Origin: OCS155 cluster bacterium AG-349-E07
Lineage (GTDB): Bacteria > Actinomycetota > Acidimicrobiia > Actinomarinales > Actinomarinaceae
Length of the DNA stretch: 35,669 nt
Direction of reading: 5' to 3'
Assembly (NCBI GenBank): GCA_003281085.1
Contig: QCCZ01000007.1
Coordinates: 1 to 35,669 of the forward strand
Part shown: piece after piece, positions 8,961-35,669 of the stretch
Layout of the letters: each line of letters opens with the position of its first letter
Position numbering within the stretch: position 1 is the stretch's first letter
Made by a program: the position numbers and the translations under genes
Notes under the pieces: generated by a model
The model's database searches: none
Seen by the model: only the letters and a program-made list of their open reading frames with translations
What the model was told of the DNA's origin: nothing

Positions 8961-9033
8961 GGGGCTGTAGCTCAGTTGGCAGAGCACTTGCATGGCATGC
9001 AAGGGGTCAGGGGTTCAAATCCCCTCAGCTCCA
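8961..9033 (+). tRNA. tRNA-Ala (anticodon GGC)
   Basis: Cloverleaf readable by eye: acceptor GGGGCTG/CAGCTCC, anticodon stem CTTGC/GCAAG with loop ATGGCAT, T-arm GGGGTTCAAATCCCC. Confidence 0.96.
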
Positions 9034-9042
9034 CTTTTAATT

Positions 9043-10248
9043 ATGAAAAAATTTCTTAACGAGACTAAAGAATTACTTCTTTCACAGGGCTTAGTTGCTA
9101 TTCTTGCAATAATTCAAGTTAGGGTTGTTGCTAGTAATTTGGGTCCAGAAATTTATGGAAATATTGGAGTATATTTAGGGTTTGTTGGAATTAGTTTCAG
9201 ATTATTAAGTTCAAGAAATTCAGATTTAGTTTTACTAAATTTTAATGAAACAAATAAAAACTTTCTTAATAGTGCCATAAAATTTGAGATTTTACTTGGC
9301 AGCTTTTCTTTATTTTTTGTTTTGAGTATTTTTTATTTGTACTATCAATATATACCAACATATCTTTGGTTATATTTTCTATCTAGAATTCTTTTAAATG
9401 TCCTTGAAGTTTTTAAAGGCATTTATACACATTTGGGTAATATGAAAATGTATTCTTTAATAGAATCTTCGTCAAACACACTGAGGTTTATTCTTGTAGT
9501 ATCATTTATTTTGAATCAGCCAACAATTGAAAGCTTTTTTTATGCTCTTGGTATTCATCAATTAATCGTGAGTTCAACTGTTTTAATAGTTCTTTTAAAA
9601 AATAATATCTCTATAGGTGAGCAAATTTCATTTATAGAATATGTTAAATTATGTAAAAAAAATTTTTACAAAATTAGAACGGATCAGGCTGTTGGATTGA
9701 TTCCTACTCACTTGGATGTTGTTATTATTGGTTATTTTGCTAATTATTATTCAGCAGGAATATATCGAATTGCCAAAAAATTAGTAGAACCAGTTAACTC
9801 AATAATTGTTGCTTTTTCTCCATGGATTTTAAACAAAATTAATGATGAAAAAAAATACAATTTTAAAAATTTAACTACAAATATTTTGATGCCAACATCT
9901 GTGGCAATCGTTTCTAGCTACTTTTTTTTTGGTAAAAAACTTATTGAAATTATCGCAGGAAATGAATTTGAAAACTCTTACATCCCTATGCTAATTTTAC
10001 TTGTTGGATATATGTCTTATTATTTAACATTTTGGACAAGACACTTTTTATTGCTAAATAATTTAATTTTGAAACATACAATGGGAAGAATTGTAAACCT
10101 TATTATTTTTATGATTACATCACCCTTCTTGATATCAAATTATGGATATAATGGCATAGCATTGGCTATAAGTTTGAGTATTTTGATTCAAAAAAGTTAT
10201 GAATTGTTTGTTTATTTCACAAATAAAAATATAGAAAATAATATCTAA
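9043..10248 (+). CDS. Oligosaccharide flippase family membrane protein (Wzx-like)
   Basis: Multi-TM protein; NLGPEIYGNIGVYLGFVGI start and VVIIGYFANYYSAGIYRIAKKLVEP typical of polysaccharide flippases. The ORF-track start (8992) lies inside tRNA-Ala; ATG 9043 is preferred. Confidence 0.82.
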   Translation: MKKFLNETKELLLSQGLVAILAIIQVRVVASNLGPEIYGNIGVYLGFVGISFRLLSSRNSDLVLLNFNETNKNFLNSAIKFEILLGSFSLFFVLSIFYLYYQYIPTYLWLYFLSRILLNVLEVFKGIYTHLGNMKMYSLIESSSNTLRFILVVSFILNQPTIESFFYALGIHQLIVSSTVLIVLLKNNISIGEQISFIEYVKLCKKNFYKIRTDQAVGLIPTHLDVVIIGYFANYYSAGIYRIAKKLVEPVNSIIVAFSPWILNKINDEKKYNFKNLTTNILMPTSVAIVSSYFFFGKKLIEIIAGNEFENSYIPMLILLVGYMSYYLTFWTRHFLLLNNLILKHTMGRIVNLIIFMITSPFLISNYGYNGIALAISLSILIQKSYELFVYFTNKNIENNI

Positions 10249-10282
10249 AAATATATAAATTCATTAGTTAGAGTTAAATGTA

Positions 10283-11620
10283 ATGATTAAAAATTTGATT
10301 AGAGATGAAAAGGTTATAGAAATTTCATTTTTCTTGTCATTAATTCTGGTCTTCCTTGACTCCTATGAGTTTATGAAATTTCCACTAACATGGATTGGAA
10401 ATTTTATGATAGTTGCAATTTGTATTTTTATTTTTTATAAAGAAAAAATGCAAATTTCATCTTTGGTTCTACTAATAATTTTTATCACTTTAATACCTAC
10501 AATATTTAATTTATTTACATTTGATTTCTTATCTAGTGAGATAGTTTATACCATTACGAGAGTCGCAAGCTATCTTGGATTTGTAATCACCTTTTTTGTT
10601 ATTTCGCAATCAAAGTTTAAAAAAATTATTTTTAAAAATATGATCAAAGCTTTCTATTTAATAATTGCATTGTCAATTTATACTTATTTTGCTCAGTTAT
10701 TTAATTTTTATGAACCAATAAGAAATAGACCTGGAACTGGAATACTAGGTTTTGATAATCAAACTAACTTCTGGCCATCAAGTAGTCATAGAATGATAGG
10801 TACATTTAGAGAACCAGTATTTTTAGTATCAATCTTATTTCCATTTTTTTTAGTAATTCACTACAAATCCATCAATAAAACAATTTTTTATGCTTTATCA
10901 GCTATTTTATTTGGCTTGACTAAGAGCGAACTTTCATTAATTCTTATAGCTACTTTTATATTTTTAGAAATTATCTTAATGAAAAAACTTAATTCAAAAG
11001 TAATTATTTTTATTTCTGTTTTTTTAATATGTTTCTTTATACCTATAAATGAATGCAATATAAGCCCAGAGAACTATGAGTGTCCACAAAATGATGATAT
11101 TCAAACTAGTAATAACTTGAATGTCGAAGAAATAGAGTATCAGCAATCAAGTCCGGAGGATTTTGAATTTCAAAACAGGGAAAGATTAGACAGTGTCAAA
11201 TTTTTTACAAATTTCATTAGTAACAATTCAGGATATGGCTTTCAATCAGCTAATCAAATATACACGAATTACTTAGCAAAAGAGGTCAAAAATGAAATGT
11301 ATTTAACTAATAGGACTTTGCCAAAATACTTAAGTGTAAGATACTTATCAGAATCCTTTGGTACAGGAAGATATTTTCTAACCTATGAAAATATCAATTT
11401 GCAGAACAATTTTATGTTTAACTTATATTCAATTGGCATGATATATTTCGTATTATTATTTTGTGTTATTTTATTTTCTTTACTAAATAATTTCCATAAT
11501 GGATTAAAAATTTCATTCATTTTATTTTCGGTTGCAATAGCTTCAATTGAAGATTTGCTACCTATTTATGGCTTATACTTAAGCCTTTTGTTTACAATGG
11601 AGCAAAATGAAGATAAATAA
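10283..11620 (+). CDS. O-antigen polymerase/ligase-like (Wzy-like) multi-TM membrane protein
   Basis: Many hydrophobic TM segments, GTFREPVFLVSILFPFFLVIHYK, one large hydrophilic acidic loop, neighbour of a flippase. Confidence 0.6.
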   Translation: MIKNLIRDEKVIEISFFLSLILVFLDSYEFMKFPLTWIGNFMIVAICIFIFYKEKMQISSLVLLIIFITLIPTIFNLFTFDFLSSEIVYTITRVASYLGFVITFFVISQSKFKKIIFKNMIKAFYLIIALSIYTYFAQLFNFYEPIRNRPGTGILGFDNQTNFWPSSSHRMIGTFREPVFLVSILFPFFLVIHYKSINKTIFYALSAILFGLTKSELSLILIATFIFLEIILMKKLNSKVIIFISVFLICFFIPINECNISPENYECPQNDDIQTSNNLNVEEIEYQQSSPEDFEFQNRERLDSVKFFTNFISNNSGYGFQSANQIYTNYLAKEVKNEMYLTNRTLPKYLSVRYLSESFGTGRYFLTYENINLQNNFMFNLYSIGMIYFVLLFCVILFSLLNNFHNGLKISFILFSVAIASIEDLLPIYGLYLSLLFTMEQNEDK

Positions 11621-12680
11621 TTTTTCTGCTGGACCTTCAAAAATACCACAAATAGTTCTTGATCAAATAGCAAAAGATATTATTGATTATCAAGATTTAG
11701 GATATTCAGTCTTGGAACTATCTCACAGAAGTACAATATTTGAAAAAATATTGAGACAAACAAAAGCAAAATTAATACAAATTTTAGATATTCCAGAAAA
11801 TTTTGAAATAATTTTCTTACAAGGTGGTGCAACTTTTCAAAATACTTTTATTCCTGCAAATAAACCAAGTTTATTAGACAACATTTCGTTTTTGATATCA
11901 GGAACTTGGGGAAAGAAAACTCATGAAGATTTTCAAAAATACTATGGAAAAAAAATTGAAAAATTTGATATACCTAATGGAAAGCATGGAATGAATCAAC
12001 TAATTAGTGCTGTAAAACGTAATCAATCTGAGTATATTTATTTAACTTCTAATGAAACTATTGAAGGAATACAAATAAAAAATACCCAACTGTTCACAGA
12101 AAAAAAATTAATTATTGATATGTCTTCTGATTTTTGTTCGTATCATTTTGATTGGCACAATATATCTTTTCTTTATGCAGGAGCTCAAAAAAATTTGGGT
12201 ATACCTGGAGTTACAGTTTGTATTTTTGATACAGACTTTGGTGAAGAGAATAATCTAACAAGTTATCTAAATATTCAGAATCATATCGATAAAAAATCAG
12301 CATTCAACACACCTCCAACATTTTCAATTTATGTAATGTTAAAAATGTTGAATTGGATAGAAAGCAATGGAGGGCTAAAAGAGCTTGAATCGAGAAACAT
12401 TTCAAAAGCAAAAAAAATATATAGTTTTTTGGAAGACAAAGAAAGCAAGCTTACTTTATTAGCTCCAAAACTCTGGAGAAGTAATGCAAATATCGTTTTT
12501 GACTTTAAAGGTAAAAACTTGACTGAACTCTTTCTACAGGAGAGTATAGAAAATGGGTTTATAGGTTTAAATGGTCATAGAAGCGTTGGCGGCGTGAGAG
12601 TTAGTAATTATAATAGTGTAACTGAAGAGATGGTTTCAGATTTCTTACTCTTCCTTGAAAAATTTATTTCGAGTAATTAA
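11607..12680 (+). CDS. serC: Phosphoserine aminotransferase-like
   Basis: NFSAGPSKIPQ, LELSHRS, IIFLQGGATFQNTFIPANK, PLP lysine region FLYAGAQKNLGIPGVTV, GHRSVGGVRVSNYNSV; 14-nt overlap with the upstream gene. Confidence 0.93.
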   Translation: MKINNFSAGPSKIPQIVLDQIAKDIIDYQDLGYSVLELSHRSTIFEKILRQTKAKLIQILDIPENFEIIFLQGGATFQNTFIPANKPSLLDNISFLISGTWGKKTHEDFQKYYGKKIEKFDIPNGKHGMNQLISAVKRNQSEYIYLTSNETIEGIQIKNTQLFTEKKLIIDMSSDFCSYHFDWHNISFLYAGAQKNLGIPGVTVCIFDTDFGEENNLTSYLNIQNHIDKKSAFNTPPTFSIYVMLKMLNWIESNGGLKELESRNISKAKKIYSFLEDKESKLTLLAPKLWRSNANIVFDFKGKNLTELFLQESIENGFIGLNGHRSVGGVRVSNYNSVTEEMVSDFLLFLEKFISSN

Positions 12681-12688
12681 GAGCATCA

Positions 12689-13333
12689 ATGGAAATAAAT
12701 AACTTTACAAAATTAAATTTAATTAATCCAAACGTGACTGCTTTTACAACAAAATTAAATATTTTAAAAAATAGTGAAATAATTTATCCACATGAAGAAA
12801 CTGTTGATGATAATCGTATTACAAATTCAATAATTAAGAATTCTGTGATTGTGCTGGGGGTTATTTTTGAATCTTTTCATGATGACCTTGTTATCAAAGA
12901 TGAGATATTTATTTTGGATGGACATCATAGATATCAATATATAAAAAATAATTCAATAGATGATTTATTTGAAGTTGTACTCGTAAGTATGAATGACATA
13001 AAAATTGAGTCCCATAATTCCGAACTGTTGATTGATGATGATATTTTTATAAATAAAATTTTGTCTGAAAAAGGCTTTTCTGAAACAGTAAAAAGTAAGT
13101 ACTTTATAACTTTAAATAATAAGCAATACTTTTCAGAAAATATTTTAGATATTAATGCGCTATATTTTTACAAAAAACAACTTTTAAAAGAATTTGTTAT
13201 TTTACCAATAAAAAACGATCAAGAAACAGATAAATCATTAGTCAAATTCACTCCAATCACTAAAAGTAATTTTCATAAAAATTATGTTTTTCCATATAAA
13301 TCTACATGGATTACACCGAGGTTTGATGTATGA
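12689..13333 (+). CDS. ParB/SerK-like protein with DGHHR motif (putative free serine kinase-like or DUF1015-related)
   Basis: IFILDGHHRYQYIKNN, late VFPYKSTWITPR resembling the FPPKSTRH-type tail of ParB-like/SerK proteins; adjacent to serC. Confidence 0.55.
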   Translation: MEINNFTKLNLINPNVTAFTTKLNILKNSEIIYPHEETVDDNRITNSIIKNSVIVLGVIFESFHDDLVIKDEIFILDGHHRYQYIKNNSIDDLFEVVLVSMNDIKIESHNSELLIDDDIFINKILSEKGFSETVKSKYFITLNNKQYFSENILDINALYFYKKQLLKEFVILPIKNDQETDKSLVKFTPITKSNFHKNYVFPYKSTWITPRFDV

Positions 13334-14436
13334 AAATTTGCCATGTAATAAATGATTTATCTAGGGGTGGAGCAGAATCACACCTTTTTACTCTGGTTAA
13401 ATTACAAATCGAAAAAGGTAACGATGTATCCCTATTATTACTTGGCAAAGATCAATCAGATTTTACATCATTAGAAGAGGATTTCGTCTCTTTAAATGTC
13501 AAGATAATGAGATTTAAAGGTCCAAAAAAACTTCAAGGTATCAATCCATGGTCAGTTATTCAAGGAATAAATTATTTTAAAAATCATGATTTTGATATTG
13601 TTCACACACATTCTCCTAGAAGTGACTTTTTAGTGTATTTGTGCAGTTTATCTTTATCAAAATCTATTAAAAGAATTGTTACTATTCATGGAAAATATGG
13701 AACATATCTACAAGGAAATTATTTTATTGATTTATTAAGAAAAATTTTTGTTAAACAGCAATCAAAAATATGGAAAACAGCAGCTAATGTTATCGTTATT
13801 TCTGAAAGTATAAAAGATTGGCTAAAACACCTCAATCCATCATTAAATCCAATAGTAATTCCTTACGGAATTGAAGTTCCACAAATGACTAATGACGATA
13901 AATCCAAAACCTTTACATTGGGGTACTTAGGAAAACTAAATAAAAATAAAGGAATCGAGGACTTAATTGATGTTTATGAAACGCTTCTCCAGAAAGAAAA
14001 TTTCAATAAATTAGAACCCAATCTTTTAATTGGTGGGGTAGGTTCAGAAAATTACATAAGAAGTATAAATGAAAGAATTAGTAATAAAAATATTCAATTT
14101 CTAGGTTATGTAGAAGATAGGCACAGTTTCTTTAATTCAATTAAAGTTTTTATATTTCCTTCTTACTCTGAAGGTCTTGGGCTAGTTTTGTTGGAAGCCA
14201 TGTCTCATGGAGTTTTATGTATAACAAGAGACGTTTCTCCAATGAATTCAATAATTAATAATGGAGAAAATGGTTTCTTGTTTAAAGACAATAATGAACT
14301 AATGGAGATAATTGAAAAAGCATTAAAATTGAATTCATTAGAAAAAGATAAGATGGTTAAATCTGCAATTGAGAAAATTGAAAAATCCTACAGTATAATG
14401 CAAATGTATTTGAGTATAGACAAAGCTTATAATTGA
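13330..14436 (+). CDS. Glycosyltransferase family 4 (GT-B)
   Basis: [71 protein letters not shown]. Confidence 0.9.
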
Positions 14437-28138: not shown

Positions 28139-28212
28139 GGGCCTGTAGCTCAGTTGGTTAGAGCAACGGACTCATAATCCGTCGGTCGTAGGTTCGAGTC
28201 CTGCCAGGCCCA
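28139..28212 (+). tRNA. tRNA with CAT anticodon (elongator Met or Ile2; not resolved)
   Basis: Acceptor GGGCCTG/CAGGCCC, anticodon stem-loop ACGGACTCATAATCCGT, D-arm GCTCAGTTGGTTAGAGC, T-arm GTTCGAGTC. Confidence 0.93.
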
Positions 28213-28225
28213 CTTGAGAACAGAT

Positions 28226-30676
28226 ATGAAATATTTTGTAGGTGGAAGTTTATTTTTTTGTTCATTTTTAATACCTGCCAATATATATTCATTATTATTT
28301 TTTGATTTATCTGAAATTGTTCTAATCATTTCTTTGATCTACAACCTGTCAATGTCTCGATATCAACTAAAAACTTTTTTTGTAAAAAAAGTTTTTATAA
28401 ATAATATTTGGACTTTAGTGATTTTATCACTCGGTTTTATATTTATCGTTTCAAGATTTGATTTATTTATTGTCAGATTAATATTTTTTACATTTATTGG
28501 ATTTTCAATTTATATTCTCTTGTCTGGCTCAGACTTTTATCAAAAAGAATTGTTTATTCTTCCTTCTATATTTTTATTGATAGTTAATTTAATTATTTCA
28601 ATATTTCAAATCTCATTAATTGATAATTCTTATGGATGGATATTATTTAATATAGAAAATCCAAATTTTTTTCAAGCTGGACGATTATCTGGTTTACAAG
28701 GTTCAGGTCCAAATGTCGCGGGTGCAATGTTTGCTTTATTATTTATTATTTACTTAGCGCATTATCATAAAACAAAGAAAATAGTTTATTTTATATCTAG
28801 TCTAGTTTCGATATTTCTTGTTTTAGTTACATATTCTAGGGGTTCATATTTGGCAATCTTTTTGAGTACTATACTTTTTTTTGTTATAAAAGACTTTTCA
28901 TTCAATAAATTAGCAAAGTATTTTTTTATAATTTTAATCCCTTTTGTTTTATTTTTATATTTTGGGAATTCTCAAATCTTTCTTAAAGAAAGCGACAGGG
29001 GATATTTAAACAATATAGCAGTTGACAACCTTAAACTAATTTCTGGATTAGGAGGTGGTAATTACGTAGAGGAAATTTATGGAAATTATTTACTTTCTAT
29101 TAATCCTGAAATTTTAGAAAGTTCTTTAAATATTGTATTAAACGACGTTGAACTAGGTATAACTCCAGAAGAATATAGAGACTCAGGTATTAATTTTTTT
29201 ATGGGGACTTCTGGTTCTGGATATGAACTCTTACAAAATAGTTTTATCGTAGATGAATGTGAATATGATCGCCGAACATGTCAATATCAGAGGATAGACA
29301 ACAATATATTATCAAAATTTACTTCAATTTTATTGAAATTAGATCTTGCAGAAACTTCAAAGCTGGTTGAAGATTCTCTTTGTATTGATAGCTCTTCATT
29401 TATTACCAGAATTGAATTTGCTTGTTTTATTGAATCAAATAATGTACGAATACTTAATCAAAATATCAATATATCTGAATTCATTGACATTGAAGATATG
29501 GAAAAACAAAGACAAATGAGTTTTATTAGAAGTAATTATTTATTTGTTGAATGCGAAGATTCTAATCAATATGCTTGCCCAAATAGAGAAATGTCTGTCG
29601 GCGAGCTAGCTGTGATAATTGAAAATGTCACTATAAACCGTAATATTTTGCCTATCGAAAATTTTACTTCTTTTTGTTCTGAATGTTCGTTTCTATCTGT
29701 AGATGGTTTTATTAAAATTATTTATGATAAATATCAAGGTATCTTACCAAGAAGTACAATTGCTTTCTATACATCCTCAGACGGAACAAACTGGGATATT
29801 GTTGGATCTAAAAGAACAACTGGTGAGATATTAAATCTAAATACCAACAATGGATATATAGAAGTAGGTGGTCACTCTGACGGTCAATCTTTTGGTAATA
29901 CGTTTTTAGATGCAAATATCAAAAAATTGATTATTAAAGATCAAAATAAAATTCAAGAAATTAATTTTATCAACGAAAAACTTGGAGAAGATTATTTTGT
30001 TTTTAAACCCAATACTTTTGACAGCTACACTTCTAAAATTACTTTTGAACAAGAAGGTATTAAATTATTTAGGCCAAATAAATATTGGTTGGCTGTAGAT
30101 AATAGTTTTGATTTCCAAAATGATTTTGAAATAATAATTGAAATATCTTTTCCAGAATTACCTTGGGAAAAGCAAACTTTAATATCCAATACTTCTAGAG
30201 AAACAAATCAACATCAATCATGGAGAATCGACATAAATGATGGAAGATTTTTCCTCAGATGGGCTGATGAAGATGGCGCTATTAAAGATAGCTATGTTTT
30301 AGGTGATAAAAGTCTTAGAAGTGGAATATTATCTCAAAAAAATGGTATATTAATTAGCAAAGATTCACCTATAGTTGATCCATCTTTTTTAAGTCAGTTA
30401 ACAACTGCCCATAATGGCTATTTAACTTTCTCTGTAGAATTTGGCTTAATTTGGTCACTATTTTTATTTTCTATTTTTATTTATATCTTTAGGTCAATAT
30501 ATTTAAAAATAGGAAAACAAAACTACCAAATATTGATATTTTTAACTTTGATAATTTTTTTAATTACTAATTTAACCAATGATATGCTGTATTCGCCAGA
30601 TATATATCTATTATTTGTTTTTTGTCTTGCATTAAATTATTTACCAATTACAGATTCAGATTTTAAGAATTCATAA
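28226..30676 (+). CDS. O-antigen ligase/polymerase-like membrane protein with a very large extracytoplasmic insertion (SLH-like Cys repeats plus ConA/LamG-like region)
   Basis: N-terminal TM helices, LKLISGLGGGNYVEE before and TTAHNGYLTFSVEFGLIWSLFLF after the insertion resemble the canonical loop ends of Wzy_C/O-antigen ligases; C-terminal TM helices. ORF track starts at TTG 28214; ATG 28226 is likely. Confidence 0.7.
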   Translation: MKYFVGGSLFFCSFLIPANIYSLLFFDLSEIVLIISLIYNLSMSRYQLKTFFVKKVFINNIWTLVILSLGFIFIVSRFDLFIVRLIFFTFIGFSIYILLSGSDFYQKELFILPSIFLLIVNLIISIFQISLIDNSYGWILFNIENPNFFQAGRLSGLQGSGPNVAGAMFALLFIIYLAHYHKTKKIVYFISSLVSIFLVLVTYSRGSYLAIFLSTILFFVIKDFSFNKLAKYFFIILIPFVLFLYFGNSQIFLKESDRGYLNNIAVDNLKLISGLGGGNYVEEIYGNYLLSINPEILESSLNIVLNDVELGITPEEYRDSGINFFMGTSGSGYELLQNSFIVDECEYDRRTCQYQRIDNNILSKFTSILLKLDLAETSKLVEDSLCIDSSSFITRIEFACFIESNNVRILNQNINISEFIDIEDMEKQRQMSFIRSNYLFVECEDSNQYACPNREMSVGELAVIIENVTINRNILPIENFTSFCSECSFLSVDGFIKIIYDKYQGILPRSTIAFYTSSDGTNWDIVGSKRTTGEILNLNTNNGYIEVGGHSDGQSFGNTFLDANIKKLIIKDQNKIQEINFINEKLGEDYFVFKPNTFDSYTSKITFEQEGIKLFRPNKYWLAVDNSFDFQNDFEIIIEISFPELPWEKQTLISNTSRETNQHQSWRIDINDGRFFLRWADEDGAIKDSYVLGDKSLRSGILSQKNGILISKDSPIVDPSFLSQLTTAHNGYLTFSVEFGLIWSLFLFSIFIYIFRSIYLKIGKQNYQILIFLTLIIFLITNLTNDMLYSPDIYLLFVFCLALNYLPITDSDFKNS

Positions 30677-31746
30677 AAATTTGAAGTAAGAATTAGTACT
30701 TGGGCACCACTTTCAGTCTCGTAATTTTTTGTAGGTACTGTTAATGCTTTAAGTTCATCAAAATTAAAATTTCTAAAATTCCACAACAATCTTGCAGCAT
30801 TATTAGTCGTCAAATTTTCATCCACAATAAAAGTATTCTCAAGTGCATCAATAAATTTAAATAAAGAATTTAAATTTCCAAAGTTTTTAACTTCGCTCAA
30901 AAGAGATGTTACAATATACTGTTCTTTTTTTATTCTTGTTAAATCACTAACGCCAGACATTTTCTCCCAAGTGGAGTTGTCATTCCCATCTTTATCAACT
31001 ATTTTATCTCCAACTAAAACTTCTGTATTTCTTGATACGACCCAGTTTAATGCAATCTCACCTCGAACAGTCTGACATCCTTTTTGTAGTTCAAAAGAAA
31101 AACCCTCCCTTTGTGTTGAATCAACGCAGATTTCAATACCACCTAAACTATCTATAATTTCCTCAAAACCCTCAAAATTAAATTTTGCAAAATGTTCAAT
31201 TTTTAAACCAGTTAAATTAAGAATTACAGCAGATAAATTTTCTGGAGCATTTCCACAATCGTTTTTTTTATAAGCACTATTTATACGTTCAAGTTTTCCT
31301 GTACATGGATTCTCAATAAGTAAGTCTCTGGGAAGAGAGACTAAACTAATAATATTATCTTTATCAACAATACCAAGTATTAGTACGTCTGCTCTCTCAC
31401 CTTGAACAAAGCCTCTTGATTCTGACGAATTCTCTGTTCTTTTATCTGAACCTATAATTAAATATGTTGTAAAAATATCATCAATTCTGATCGTTTCATT
31501 AAATTCTAAGACACTATTGCTTTCAATTATTATTTCTTCTTCAATAGTTTCTGGAGTTTGTATATCAATTTCCGGTTCTACGTCTTGAATTAAACTCGTA
31601 GTTGTTGAACCCAGTGAAATATCTTCGATGATATTTTGATCAAAATCTTCAGTTTGAAAGTTTGGAATCACGGAATACATTATTGTTGCGAATAAAATTA
31701 ACGAAAATCCCAAGATGATATTTAATTTATTATTTTTCATAACCAA
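30637..31746 (-). CDS. LytR-CpsA-Psr (LCP) family glycopolymer transferase (start TTG 31746 or ATG 31740)
   Basis: N-terminal TM anchor, YLIIGSDKR, ERADVLILGIVDKDNIISLVSLPRDLLIENP, INSAYKKN, FEEIIDSLGGIEICVD. Confidence 0.92.
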   Translation of the reverse strand: MVMKNNKLNIILGFSLILFATIMYSVIPNFQTEDFDQNIIEDISLGSTTTSLIQDVEPEIDIQTPETIEEEIIIESNSVLEFNETIRIDDIFTTYLIIGSDKRTENSSESRGFVQGERADVLILGIVDKDNIISLVSLPRDLLIENPCTGKLERINSAYKKNDCGNAPENLSAVILNLTGLKIEHFAKFNFEGFEEIIDSLGGIEICVDSTQREGFSFELQKGCQTVRGEIALNWVVSRNTEVLVGDKIVDKDGNDNSTWEKMSGVSDLTRIKKEQYIVTSLLSEVKNFGNLNSLFKFIDALENTFIVDENLTTNNAARLLWNFRNFNFDELKALTVPTKNYETESGAQVLILTSNFYEFLKSESVIGK

Positions 31747-31785: not shown

Positions 31786-32499
31786 ATGAAAAAAAATTTT
31801 ACTGTAATAGCAGCAGGTGGATTAGGAACTCGTTTAAAAAATTATAAAAATAACGACTATACAAAAGTTTTAATACCTATTGGGCTAACATCTATGATTT
31901 CTCAGCAAATTAAGCAACTTAAAAATTGGGGATATGACAACATAGTTATTGTAACTAATCCAGAATACGATAAATTAATTAAGGAAGATGTTAAAGGCAA
32001 TTTCCCAAATGAAAATATAGAATTTGTAATTCAGAATGAACAATTAGGAATCGCTCATGCCTTAAAGCAGGCTGAACCAGTTATTGATAAAGGTTCACAA
32101 ATTTCATTTATTTTAGGAGATAATTTTTTTGGAGTTAATCCTTTCGCAAATAACAAATCAATTTACTCAGATAATTCAGCAGCTTTGGTTTTAAAAAAAG
32201 TAAATAACCCTGAAGATTTTGGTGTTGCAGTACTTAAAAATAGTAAAATTGTGGATTTAATTGAGAAACCCAAAAAGTTTATATCAAATTATGCAGTGCT
32301 GGGTTTTTATAAATACGAATATGAATGTTTTGAAATTATCGATAGTCTCAAAAAATCTGATAGGGGAGAGTACGAGATTACTGATCTAAACAAAAAGTAT
32401 TTAAACCTCAGTAAGGTGAATTACAGTATATTTGATTCTTGGTGGATTGATGCAGGTACGCCCGAAAGAATTGAAGAGTTATCACAAAAGCTAATTTAG
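31786..32499 (+). CDS. Sugar nucleotidyltransferase (RmlA-like NTP_transferase family)
   Basis: FTVIAAGGLGTRLKNYKNNDYTKVLIPIG, ISFILGDNFFG, SWWIDAGTPERIEE. Confidence 0.9.
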   Translation: MKKNFTVIAAGGLGTRLKNYKNNDYTKVLIPIGLTSMISQQIKQLKNWGYDNIVIVTNPEYDKLIKEDVKGNFPNENIEFVIQNEQLGIAHALKQAEPVIDKGSQISFILGDNFFGVNPFANNKSIYSDNSAALVLKKVNNPEDFGVAVLKNSKIVDLIEKPKKFISNYAVLGFYKYEYECFEIIDSLKKSDRGEYEITDLNKKYLNLSKVNYSIFDSWWIDAGTPERIEELSQKLI

Positions 32500-33528
32500 T
32501 GGTTCTAATTTTTGGAAGTAAAAAAATAAATAAGAAATAATTATTATGTAAGATAAAAAAGCTATATTAGCGAAAGAATCAAAAATAATTGTTGCTGCGA
32601 TAGTTAAAAATACTATGATATTTAAACCAATAAATAAATAAAGTATTTTTCTTACCGATAAACCTTTTTTTAGCAATCTATGAGATATATGGTCTGTACC
32701 TCCTGTTGTTGGAGAAATATTGTTTTTTATTCTATGATAAAAAACTGTTAAAAAATCTAAAATTGGTATTGTAAAAAATAAAAAAACTGGTGCAATTGAG
32801 TTGTAAAGTTGTATATCTGAAGTTGGATTCCAATTAAATAGTATGCTGATAAAACCAAATACAAATCCAATGAACAAACTTCCAGAATCACCCATATATA
32901 TTTTTGCTGGTGGATAATTAAATAAAATAAATCCAGATATTGAAGCAAAAAGAACAAAACTAATATCTGCTAGGTAATTTTGATTAAAAACAAAAGAAAG
33001 TATGGTAGTTGCCAAACAAATAAAGCTACAATTTATAGCAGCAAATCCATCCATGTTATCTATAAAATTTATCGAGTTCATTAGAGTTATTACCCAAAAA
33101 ATTGTAAAGACGAAATTAACACGACCTCCAAAATCAATACCTATAAATATTTCTAAATTTATTTTTTGATCAAGTATATAAATTGGCAAACTAACAAAAA
33201 TTAATTGAAAAAATAATTTTAGTTTCCAATTCAAGTCAAAGAAATCATCTAAAACGCCTAATAATGAAATTGCTAAAGCAAAAATTGATATATTTACAAT
33301 TTCAGGATCTGCTTCACCGAGAAGCCTTACTGAAATAAAAAAGCTTATTGCCATTGCAACACCACCAAGTGGGACAATATTGAAATCGTTTAAACGCTTT
33401 TGAGTATTTTTAGATTTTGAAAAATTTGATATATATTTAATTAATAAAAAACACAATATTGCTGTAATCAAAAATGAAGAAATAGAAGCTACATAAACAG
33501 ATACTTGAAAGTCATTATATAAATTCAT
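32491..33528 (-). CDS. Undecaprenyl-phosphate sugar-1-phosphate transferase, WecA/MraY-like
   Basis: Multi-TM; GGVAMAISF, LGVLDDFFDLNWKLKL, INFIDNMDGFAAIN, PPAKIYMGDSGSLFIGFVFG, late GGTDHISHRLLKKGLS. Confidence 0.93.
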   Translation of the reverse strand: MNLYNDFQVSVYVASISSFLITAILCFLLIKYISNFSKSKNTQKRLNDFNIVPLGGVAMAISFFISVRLLGEADPEIVNISIFALAISLLGVLDDFFDLNWKLKLFFQLIFVSLPIYILDQKINLEIFIGIDFGGRVNFVFTIFWVITLMNSINFIDNMDGFAAINCSFICLATTILSFVFNQNYLADISFVLFASISGFILFNYPPAKIYMGDSGSLFIGFVFGFISILFNWNPTSDIQLYNSIAPVFLFFTIPILDFLTVFYHRIKNNISPTTGGTDHISHRLLKKGLSVRKILYLFIGLNIIVFLTIAATIIFDSFANIAFLSYIIIISYLFFYFQKLEPLN

Positions 33529-34609
33529 AATATAATTCTTTGAATTTGTCTGATATTGCTTTTACTGAATAATTTTCTTCAATAACCTGAGCAGCGTATT
33601 CATGATTTAGTGTGTATTTGCCATTTAAATAATTGTTAATTTCATCAATATATAAATCAATATTGTTTTCCTTGATCAAAAGACCGTGCTTCGTCTTGCT
33701 AATAATTTCATTCATTCCCGGTATATCGTTTACAATGCAAAAAAGACCTGAATATATGCTTTCCAACAATACTCGTGAAAACCCTTCGTGGTAGCTAGGC
33801 TGAATTAAAATATCAAAATCATGTAAATTTTCTTGTACATCGATCTCTCCAAGATAATTTATATTTGGGTTATTTTTTAGTTCATCAAATTCTTTAAGAT
33901 TAAGACTACTTTTATTACCAAAATCTGGTTTGCCTGCTATGTGAAAACTAATATTTTTATTTTCTTTCATACCATCGGCAATAGCTAAATATTCATAAAT
34001 ACCTTTTTCCCTCATTAACCTTCCAACAAAAATAATTTTATTTTTTTTGACCTGTTCTTTTTTTTGTTTAAATGCTTCAGTATTTAAACCACTACCTTCA
34101 ATAATTTTTACGTTATTTTTATAGTTTGAATATCTTAAAAAATCTGAATAATTTTTCTTATTCTGAAAAATTATCGTATCAACTTCTTTGTTTATTTTAT
34201 ATTTTATAAATGGTTTAATTAAAACTCTTAATATATTCCCAAGCAGTGAATTACCAAATAAATAACCTAGGCCTGTTATTGAGACTATTACTACAAATTT
34301 CTTTTTTAAAAAAAAGGTTGAAAATATAAATAAAAATAAAGATTTAATTGTAAATATGTGTATTAAAGAATTTGATTCAATGTTTTTTAATATTTTTCTT
34401 AAGTTAAAAACTCCACCTATGTCCAAAAGCTTTTTGTTATTTATTTGCCAATCAATAAAATTTTGATACGTTTGATTAATTTCAGATTTGTTATCTCCAA
34501 GTGGACAAATAGAAGTGATGTTAAAATACTCTTTTAAATAATTGACCATGTCTGCTCTCGATCTTTGCAGTATCCAATCTGAGTGAGCAATAAAATAAAT
34601 CACTAACAT
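33515..34609 (-). CDS. Glycosyltransferase family 4 (GT-B)
   Basis: KIIFVGRLMREKGIYEYLAIAD, FDILIQPSYHEGFSRVLLESIYSGLFCIVNDIPGMNEII; 14-nt overlap with the WecA-like gene. Confidence 0.9.
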   Translation of the reverse strand: MLVIYFIAHSDWILQRSRADMVNYLKEYFNITSICPLGDNKSEINQTYQNFIDWQINNKKLLDIGGVFNLRKILKNIESNSLIHIFTIKSLFLFIFSTFFLKKKFVVIVSITGLGYLFGNSLLGNILRVLIKPFIKYKINKEVDTIIFQNKKNYSDFLRYSNYKNNVKIIEGSGLNTEAFKQKKEQVKKNKIIFVGRLMREKGIYEYLAIADGMKENKNISFHIAGKPDFGNKSSLNLKEFDELKNNPNINYLGEIDVQENLHDFDILIQPSYHEGFSRVLLESIYSGLFCIVNDIPGMNEIISKTKHGLLIKENNIDLYIDEINNYLNGKYTLNHEYAAQVIEENYSVKAISDKFKELYYEFI

Positions 34610-34631
34610 TATTATAAAGTTATTGAAAGGT

Positions 34632-34637
34632 TATCAT
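34632..34637 (+). promoter_or_regulatory. Candidate -10 element for the nucleotide-sugar dehydrogenase (leaderless spacing)
   Basis: TATCAT, 6 nt, then ATG 34644; no SD in the gap. Confidence 0.3.
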
Positions 34638-34643
34638 CAAATT

Positions 34644-35669
34644 ATGAACATTGTTGTAATTGGTGTTGGTTATGTAGGTTTAGTATCAGGATTATGCTTA
34701 GCAAAATTAAAACATAATATTCAATTTATAGACATTGATGAATCAAAAATAAATTCTTTAAAAAAACACCAGCCAACTTTTTTTGAACCTGAGTTAGAAG
34801 ATTATTTAAACAACAAAGAAATTTTGGGCAATGTCAACTTTTCTAGTGAATATAAAAATATAGATTGGGACAATGTTGACATTGTAATGGTTTGTGTTCA
34901 AACTCCATCACTTGAAAGTAATCAAATAGACACAAGTTTTGTTAAAAAAGTTTTTATGTCTATAGAAAATTATATAAATGAAAATACAGTAGTTTGTATC
35001 AAGTCAACCATCCATCCAGAAGCTCTTGAAAAGATTATTGCTGATTTAAGTTTTGATGAGCGTAGGATTGTATTTAATCCAGAATTTTTGAGAGAAGGTT
35101 CGGCTTTCACTGACTTTTTTCAACCTGACAGAATAGTCATTGGCTCCACTGACGAAGAGAATGCGAAAAAAGTTGGTTCATTATACAAGGATTTAGATAC
35201 GGAAATCTTGTTTACAGATCCTGTAAGTTCGCAATTAATTAAGTATCTTTCAAATGCATATCTACCTTTAAGATTATCTTTTGTAAATGAGGCTTCTCAA
35301 ATTATTAGTGTAATGGGTGGCAACTTGCAAGAAACTCTAAAAGGTATAGGGATGGATAATAGAATCGGACAAAATTATTTTAGACCTTCTCCAGGCTGGG
35401 GAGGTTCTTGTTTTCCAAAAGATGTTGCTGAAATTAATTCAATTATAAAATCTAATAATCTAATTTTGCCTTTAATTTCAAATATAAAAAAATCTAATTC
35501 TACCCATCAAGAATGGTTTACTGAATACTTAATAAATCTAAAAAATGAAAAAAAGTTTGAAAATATATTTTTGATTGGACTTGCATTTAAAGATAATACT
35601 GATGACTTAAGGCATTCACCTACAGTTTCAATATATGAAATTCTTGACTCAAAAAACCAATCAGTGCAT
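34644..35669 (+). CDS. UDP-glucose/GDP-mannose dehydrogenase family (nucleotide-sugar dehydrogenase), 3'-truncated by the window end
   Basis: Not in the ORF track because no stop is reached. Own translation: MNIVVIGVGYVGLVSGLCLAKLKHNIQFIDIDESKI..., FNPEFLREGSAFTDFFQPDRIVIGS, catalytic Cys region PGWGGSCFPKD. Confidence 0.93.
   Translation, partial: MNIVVIGVGYVGLVSGLCLAKLKHNIQFIDIDESKINSLKKHQPTFFEPELEDYLNNKEILGNVNFSSEYKNIDWDNVDIVMVCVQTPSLESNQIDTSFVKKVFMSIENYINENTVVCIKSTIHPEALEKIIADLSFDERRIVFNPEFLREGSAFTDFFQPDRIVIGSTDEENAKKVGSLYKDLDTEILFTDPVSSQLIKYLSNAYLPLRLSFVNEASQIISVMGGNLQETLKGIGMDNRIGQNYFRPSPGWGGSCFPKDVAEINSIIKSNNLILPLISNIKKSNSTHQEWFTEYLINLKNEKKFENIFLIGLAFKDNTDDLRHSPTVSIYEILDSKNQSVH

Follow-up and report, generated by a model that had tools for sequence, protein, structure and literature searches.

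A Wzy_C-type membrane glycan polymerase/ligase of Candidatus Actinomarina with SLH and apparently circularly permuted LamG-like modules in its catalytic loop

Introduction

The Wzy_C/O-antigen ligase superfamily (PF04932) corresponds to GT121 and the related BP-Pol families of CAZy (clan GT-C1), and Wzy/WaaL-type enzymes are usually bare membrane cores. It is poorly understood how these enzymes deal with long chains and locate their acceptors. In the O-antigen ligase WaaL, two arginines (Arg-191 and Arg-265) bind the diphosphate of the carrier while His-313 activates the acceptor (PMC10920833). WadA, from Brucella and related bacteria, is a bimodular O-antigen ligase of GT121+GT25 composition (PMC10920833), and the superfamily also includes protein O-glycosylation ligases (PMC3643930).

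Candidatus Actinomarina and OCS155 bacteria form a streamlined marine actinobacterial group (PMC7771536). In Actinomarinales, there is no evidence of an outer membrane and one order-wide flexible envelope-polysaccharide island is present, which is bounded and fed at tRNAs (PMC7771536). Here, we describe a gene from a 0.95 Mb genome of the genus Candidatus Actinomarina, which is contained in a stretch of 35,669 nucleotides (the window) and encodes a Wzy_C-type membrane protein with folded domains inside its catalytic loop. The features of the locus are collected in Table 1.

Table 1. Coordinates in the window of the insert gene, its parts and its neighbours
Feature	Position	Strand	Remarks
tRNA-Met (CAT), directly upstream	28139..28213	+	same position in relatives
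Whole gene, Wzy_C-type membrane glycan polymerase/ligase with loop insert	28226..30676	+	816 aa
N-terminal transmembrane part, aa 1-246	28226..28963	+	AF2 helices, hydropathy
Motif GRLSGLQGSGPNVAG, aa 152-166	28679..28723	+	invariant or nearly so, 28 members
Arg205 of SRG, candidate diphosphate-binding Arg	28838..28840	+	invariant in family and paralogues
Arg258 of (D/N)RG, candidate second diphosphate-binding Arg	28997..28999	+	invariant in family
GLGGGNY motif, aa 274-280, start of extracytoplasmic loop	29045..29065	+	
Linker before SLH module	29066..29203	+	low model confidence
SLH triple repeat, aa 327-476	29204..29653	+	profile links, Foldseek
LamG-like module, first half (the C-terminal one of canonical domains), aa 494-603	29705..30034	+	hhalign vs 10 phage LamG domains
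LamG-like module, second half (the N-terminal one of canonical domains), aa 604-696	30035..30313	+	hhalign; Laminin_G_3 6-67 in relative
TTAHNGYLTFSVEFG motif with invariant His729 (30410-30412), candidate acceptor-activating His	30401..30445	+	
C-terminal transmembrane helices	30446..30631	+	AF2 helices, hydropathy
LytR-CpsA-Psr (LCP) glycan-to-wall transferase, convergent	30637..31746	-	in same 31 genomes
Nucleotidyltransferase (sugar-nucleotide type)	31786..32499	+	
Glycos_transf_4, WecA/TagO-type lipid-carrier sugar-phosphate transferase	32491..33528	-	
Glycosyltransferase group 1	33515..34609	-	
UDP-glucose/GDP-mannose dehydrogenase family	34623..35669	+	

Results

The membrane core is of the Wzy_C type

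The open reading frame spans positions 28214-30676 on the forward strand; its upstream TTG coincides with the end of the tRNA-Met, and the ATG at 28226 was therefore taken as the natural start. Wzy_C was matched by the core in 20/20 members scanned (best, 2.9e-8). Moreover, R205, R258 and H729 are invariant in the 28 members of the family alignment, and the GR..G.Q..GPN part of the GRLSGLQGSGPNVAG region is also present in paralogues. By analogy, and judging from motif position, R205 would correspond to Arg-191, R258 to Arg-265 and H729 to His-313 of WaaL. The AlphaFold2 model (pLDDT 74.6) gave WaaL (7TPG), the fold of which has ~12 transmembrane helices, weakly in Foldseek (prob 0.41, TM 0.36 by target). 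Searched against PDB sequences, the core profile had no near match and the whole-family profile had a single irrelevant match at 0.46. In total, we conclude that the 816-aa protein is a Wzy_C/O-antigen-ligase-type membrane protein.

Inserted domains split the Wzy_C domain

In the 816-aa protein, ~445 hydrophilic residues separate GLGGGNY from TTAHNGYL (aa 726-733, 30401-30424), which is followed by the last transmembrane helices. By contrast, ~28 residues lie between the G-x-G and HN motifs in the closest paralogues of the genus (382-414 aa), which carry the GR..G.Q..GPN, SR and HN(S) motifs. These paralogues lie 13-15 kb from the insert gene where both are on one contig (e.g. G019, G032). Within the family, the insert between G-x-G and HN comes in a long form of ~445 aa and a short form of ~275 aa.

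With the insert kept, the 816-aa protein scored 17.2 bits against Pfam Wzy_C and matched profile positions 2-61 of 149; with the insert omitted, the score rose to 26.7 bits and the match to positions 2-143 of 149, both scores being below the curated cut-off of 31.7 bits. Since omission of the insert lengthens the match in this way, the insert splits the Wzy_C domain. In two relatives, the same omission brought the score above the cut-off, i.e. from 22.7 to 39.1 bits (L042) and from 26.9 to 32.6 bits (L057), and in a third (G009), the insert is flanked, within a single reading frame, by Wzy_C matches to positions 1-59 and 68-149. We conclude that the catalytic-loop domain is split by inserted domains.

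A preliminary description of this DNA had proposed transmembrane helices up to ~28960 followed by a loop motif, then more than 400 hydrophilic residues before a second motif and the last helices, and had interpreted this arrangement as a Wzy/WaaL-type core in which whole domains are inserted between two motifs that normally sit within one modest loop. All of this was borne out: the helices extend to ~aa 246, the core matches Wzy_C at near full length once the insert is omitted, and the inserted domains appear to be a LamG-like sandwich in permuted order together with three SLH repeats.

Other Wzy_C proteins of the genus, with a length of 668-701 aa (G019:C4:68289 and G032:C9:37206), have an uninterrupted Wzy_C match together with a large extra N-terminal membrane part.

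The insert consists of two separable modules preceded by a short, conserved linker: the LamG-like module is found in every complete member and the SLH-like module in one clade. The AlphaFold2 model of the insert (pLDDT 79.6, pTM 0.72) has mostly confident strands in both LamG halves. Pfam, NCBIfam and PHROGs gave nothing useful on the insert, and weak TadZ-like, DbpA, RRM and AGMP matches were rejected as chance. In Foldseek searches with the predicted models, all E-values were above 0.001, with rmsd values of 5-17 Å.

The halves of the LamG-like module are in swapped order

In the insert, the stretch FYTSSDGTNWDIVG...IEVGGHSDG, which belongs to the second half of actinophage LamG domains such as that of the L065 tail protein, comes first, and DFEI...QTLIS...SWR...GRFFLRW, which belongs to their first half, comes second. 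We compared the family profile with an hhalign profile of ten phage LamG domains. In the native order, 78 columns were aligned (score 39.4, E 3e-5); in the swapped order, 147 columns were aligned (score 71.2, E 2.6e-10, prob 96.8). Taken singly, the halves scored ~40 each (E 1e-5 and 3e-6), and both aligned where they are expected in the canonical profile. When the cut point was rolled along the module, a plateau of 70-72 was reached solely for cuts that place the second half first, while the reversed profile scored 16.5 and the best of 20 column shuffles 17.1. The result holds separately for the long forms and for the short forms, and in the alignment the halves are swapped in 28/28 full-length members.

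Concanavalin A and the Dioclea lectins, which are circularly permuted relative to other legume lectins, were the leading lectin matches in Foldseek against the PDB (prob ≤0.97, E ~0.005-0.5, rmsd ~9-14 Å). This structural result is consistent with the permutation and weak alone; the main evidence is the profile test. A cytochrome c, the sole match of the permuted domain in a PDB sequence search (E ~0.1), was rejected. Canonical LamG domains, as a possible source, were not found in the genus with a query that has no positive control there. Altogether, the profile comparisons support well that the LamG/concanavalin-like module is a natural circular permutation at the level of the gene.

The SLH module is shared with a candidate wall protein

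Over the length of three repeats, residues 327-476 can be aligned with part of a 989-aa PG_binding+SpoIID protein of Actinomarina, with reciprocal matches down to E 1.3e-5 and six cysteines, one pair per repeat, common to both. The 989-aa protein has four peptidoglycan-binding domains, SpoIID and the SLH block (L075:1879-4845, L076:2925-5894) and was found in 40/42 Actinomarina genomes; it is a candidate for the main wall protein of the genus.

Pfam SLH (PF00395) had no match in the 42 genus genomes at E ≤ 0.001, and it misses both the insert and the wall-protein block. A joint profile of the two blocks reached other Acidimicrobiia proteins with E-values down to 3e-10, and all five of these that were retrieved carry Pfam SLH (E 3e-9 to 9e-19), two of them being SpoIID-SLH proteins. 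Moreover, Foldseek matched the module to the SLH structures of Sap (3PYW; prob 0.99, TM 0.52), 6BT4 (prob 0.94) and SpaA (6CWR; prob 0.84) with weak E-values (0.25-0.5), and Sap was the sole match in a phmmer search with the wall-protein SLH block (E 0.019). The identification of residues 327-476 as a three-repeat SLH domain is, thus, well supported through intermediate sequences.

Eight cysteines of the module (aa 345, 352, 386, 400, 443, 451, 484 and 487) are invariant in 11/11 long forms, and none was present in the inserts of those short forms that were checked; the last pair (484 and 487; 29675-29686) lies just outside the profile match. This pattern would fit disulfides outside the membrane.

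The usual SLH ligand, a pyruvylated wall polymer, is made by the pyruvyltransferase CsaB. A CsaB-type pyruvyltransferase (PF04230) was absent from 42/42 genus genomes, with the control positive in 8/14; therefore, the usual ligand is not assumed, and the SLH repeats of Actinomarina may use a ligand other than a pyruvylated polymer.

The insert gene is conserved at one locus throughout the genus

A scan of the genome contigs with the 816-aa protein alone gave no match, its patterns being too specific, while the family profile gave 31 loci. The insert profile matched 31 of the 395 genomes of the class, all of Candidatus Actinomarina, and none of 396 other genomes from across the phylum. Within the genus, the gene was detected in 31/42 genomes and in 8/8 of those at least 90% complete. 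The adjoining LCP gene is absent from exactly the 11 genomes in which the insert gene was not detected, and all 11 are less than 90% complete, so that the locus is probably missing from the assembly; true absence of the gene in some genomes was rejected as unproven.

Of the 31 copies, 11 are of the long form (808-846 aa) and 17 of the short form (open frames of 675-687 aa); a further two are fragments and one is broken. The long forms fall into one group in the core tree (support 92/86), and therefore the SLH module, which is confined to this single clade of 11 genomes, was gained or lost once. The LamG-like module is kept by all complete members and, therefore, its insertion is older. The "~440-aa multidomain insertion" of the preliminary description is accordingly real, occurring in 31 genomes at the same locus; it is not one unit, however, being composed of two separable modules, of which the SLH module is found in one clade only. 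The expectation that the insertion recurs in homologues and is missing from other Wzy-like proteins encoded in these genomes proved correct.

In an Actinomarinales metagenome assembly (L064/G172), the insert gene and its LCP neighbour are both broken by frameshifts and stops, which probably reflects an assembly with sequencing errors.

Genomic context

The ATG lies 12 nt past the tRNA-Met, and in relatives the spacing is ~0-15 nt; because of this close spacing, the mRNA of the insert gene may be released, nearly leaderless, through tRNA processing. At its 3' end, the gene is overlapped by the convergent LCP gene over 40 nt (30637-30676). The insert gene apparently lies at the margin of the published island for envelope glycans (PMC7771536). 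That it is conserved despite this position suggests that the glycan it serves is constant rather than variable.

A second, small glycan cassette (window positions 8961-14436) lies between a tRNA-Ala (8961-9034) and leuS, with housekeeping genes around it. It has a low GC content (~26%) and encodes a Wzy_C-like protein without insert (10283-11620), a class-V aminotransferase and a glycosyltransferase as well as proteins of 418 aa and 214 aa of no assigned family.

Discussion

On balance, we lean towards the insert gene encoding a Wzy_C-type transferase that takes its glycan from a lipid diphosphate carrier and has glycan- and wall-binding modules in its loop; sequence alone does not separate a ligase from a polymerase here. 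The presence of the LCP gene in the same 31 genomes and the cluster of TagO-type and sugar-nucleotide genes argue for a glycan transferase. Points that weigh against this reading are the score of the 816-aa protein below the Wzy_C cut-off, the lack of a near PDB sequence match for the core, the weak Foldseek E-values, a LamG-like module with no assigned ligand site and with phage tail proteins as its canonical relatives, and the absence of CsaB from the genus. From what the families are known for, the donor would be a lipid-diphosphate-linked glycan on the outer face of the membrane, and the insert would project from the catalytic loop, where it could touch donor, acceptor or product. Most economically, the lectin-like module might keep the acceptor or the growing glycan close to the active site while the SLH module might dock the enzyme on a peptidoglycan-linked polymer. 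The product could be a conserved wall polymer, which the neighbouring LCP protein would attach to peptidoglycan. Glycan recognition and anchoring by the inserted modules are read from their folds, and we propose them as such.

More tentatively, the protein might be a self-anchored polymerase or ligase in which the SLH module grips the wall and the lectin domain, permuted at the gene level and placed in the catalytic loop, grips the nascent chain. If true, anchoring and chain handling, which are otherwise carried out by separate partners, would be joined in a single protein of a streamlined genome.

Proteins can also be ligands of LamG and SLH folds, and the insert could be a structural or protein-protein module, e.g. 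for docking the LCP protein or a chain-length partner, that binds no carbohydrate. No ligand-site residues are assignable in the LamG-like module and the gene of the SLH pyruvate-ketal pathway is missing, both of which would agree with such a role. However, on bacterial surfaces it is mostly glycans that SLH repeats and LamG-type sandwiches bind; moreover, genomes with long forms and genomes with short forms have the same LCP partner and, therefore, LCP does not require at least the SLH part. We regard a purely structural or protein-binding role as rather unlikely.

We also think it improbable that the core is a PglL-like protein O-oligosaccharyltransferase, the modules of which recruit an acceptor protein, e.g. 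a surface glycoprotein, and not a wall glycan. The superfamily does include protein O-glycosylation ligases (PMC3643930) and an SLH-bearing wall protein is present in the genus, but the gene conserved next to it encodes a glycan-to-wall transferase of the LCP type and not a candidate acceptor protein, and no PglL-type model matched.

As for the sandwich itself, it might be an unrelated beta-domain that shares the FYTSxDGxxW..G motif with LamG by chance. No Pfam LamG model scored over cut-off on the insert family, the best being Laminin_G_3 in a single relative (E 0.02-0.09); this test is insensitive here because the canonical phage domain of L065 also fails it. By contrast, the two halves match separately at the expected places and only the swapped order joins them, the Laminin_G_3 match (positions 6-67) falls in the second half, and Foldseek points to concanavalin A-type lectins. 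We consider a chance resemblance very unlikely and already mostly refuted. Finally, although one metagenome assembly has a gene broken by stops and frameshifts, a chimeric assembly, a frameshift fusion or a decaying gene is refuted by 28 intact full-length members from independent genomes, at the same locus and with the catalytic residues kept.

For a glycan transferase with binding modules in its loop, the family offers an entry point into chain handling and acceptor finding by Wzy/WaaL enzymes. The insert can be produced alone and would be a natural soluble handle on what such enzymes hold; it also appears to offer a LamG-type lectin domain whose circular permutation is natural and encoded in the gene, and the short and long forms of the enzyme are natural controls. 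The host, moreover, is an abundant ocean actinobacterium with a tiny genome.

The preliminary description knew of no described family with this architecture and, in agreement with this, we found no paper in the open literature that describes a Wzy_C protein with a LamG/SLH loop insert; thus, the combination of Wzy_C with permuted LamG and SLH loop modules appears to be undescribed so far. Like the Wzy_C superfamily, the protein has a core with multiple transmembrane helices, the SR(G/S/A) and DR arginines, and the HN(G/S) histidine in a large extracytoplasmic loop; unlike its relatives there, it has folded domains between G-x-G and HN. Like WadA, it is a Wzy_C-type ligase relative with an additional functional domain (PMC10920833); however, in WadA a glycosyltransferase is appended, while here non-catalytic-looking modules interrupt the catalytic loop domain. 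With the LamG domains of actinophage minor tail proteins (e.g. L065 and those of Curtobacterium phage Teagster and Streptomyces phage phiSASD1), the insert shares the two half-domain motifs in swapped order. It resembles concanavalin A and the Dioclea lectins, its top Foldseek lectin matches, in being circularly permuted; concanavalin A is permuted after translation, whereas the permutation of the insert would be encoded in the gene. Finally, like the SLH domains of Sap, SpaA and the Acidimicrobiia SpoIID-SLH proteins, the SLH module has three repeats, and it is linked to these domains in fold by 3PYW, 6BT4 and 6CWR and in sequence via intermediates; unlike usual SLH domains, it is diverged below Pfam detection, has a cysteine pair in each repeat, and is located inside a membrane enzyme in a genus without CsaB.
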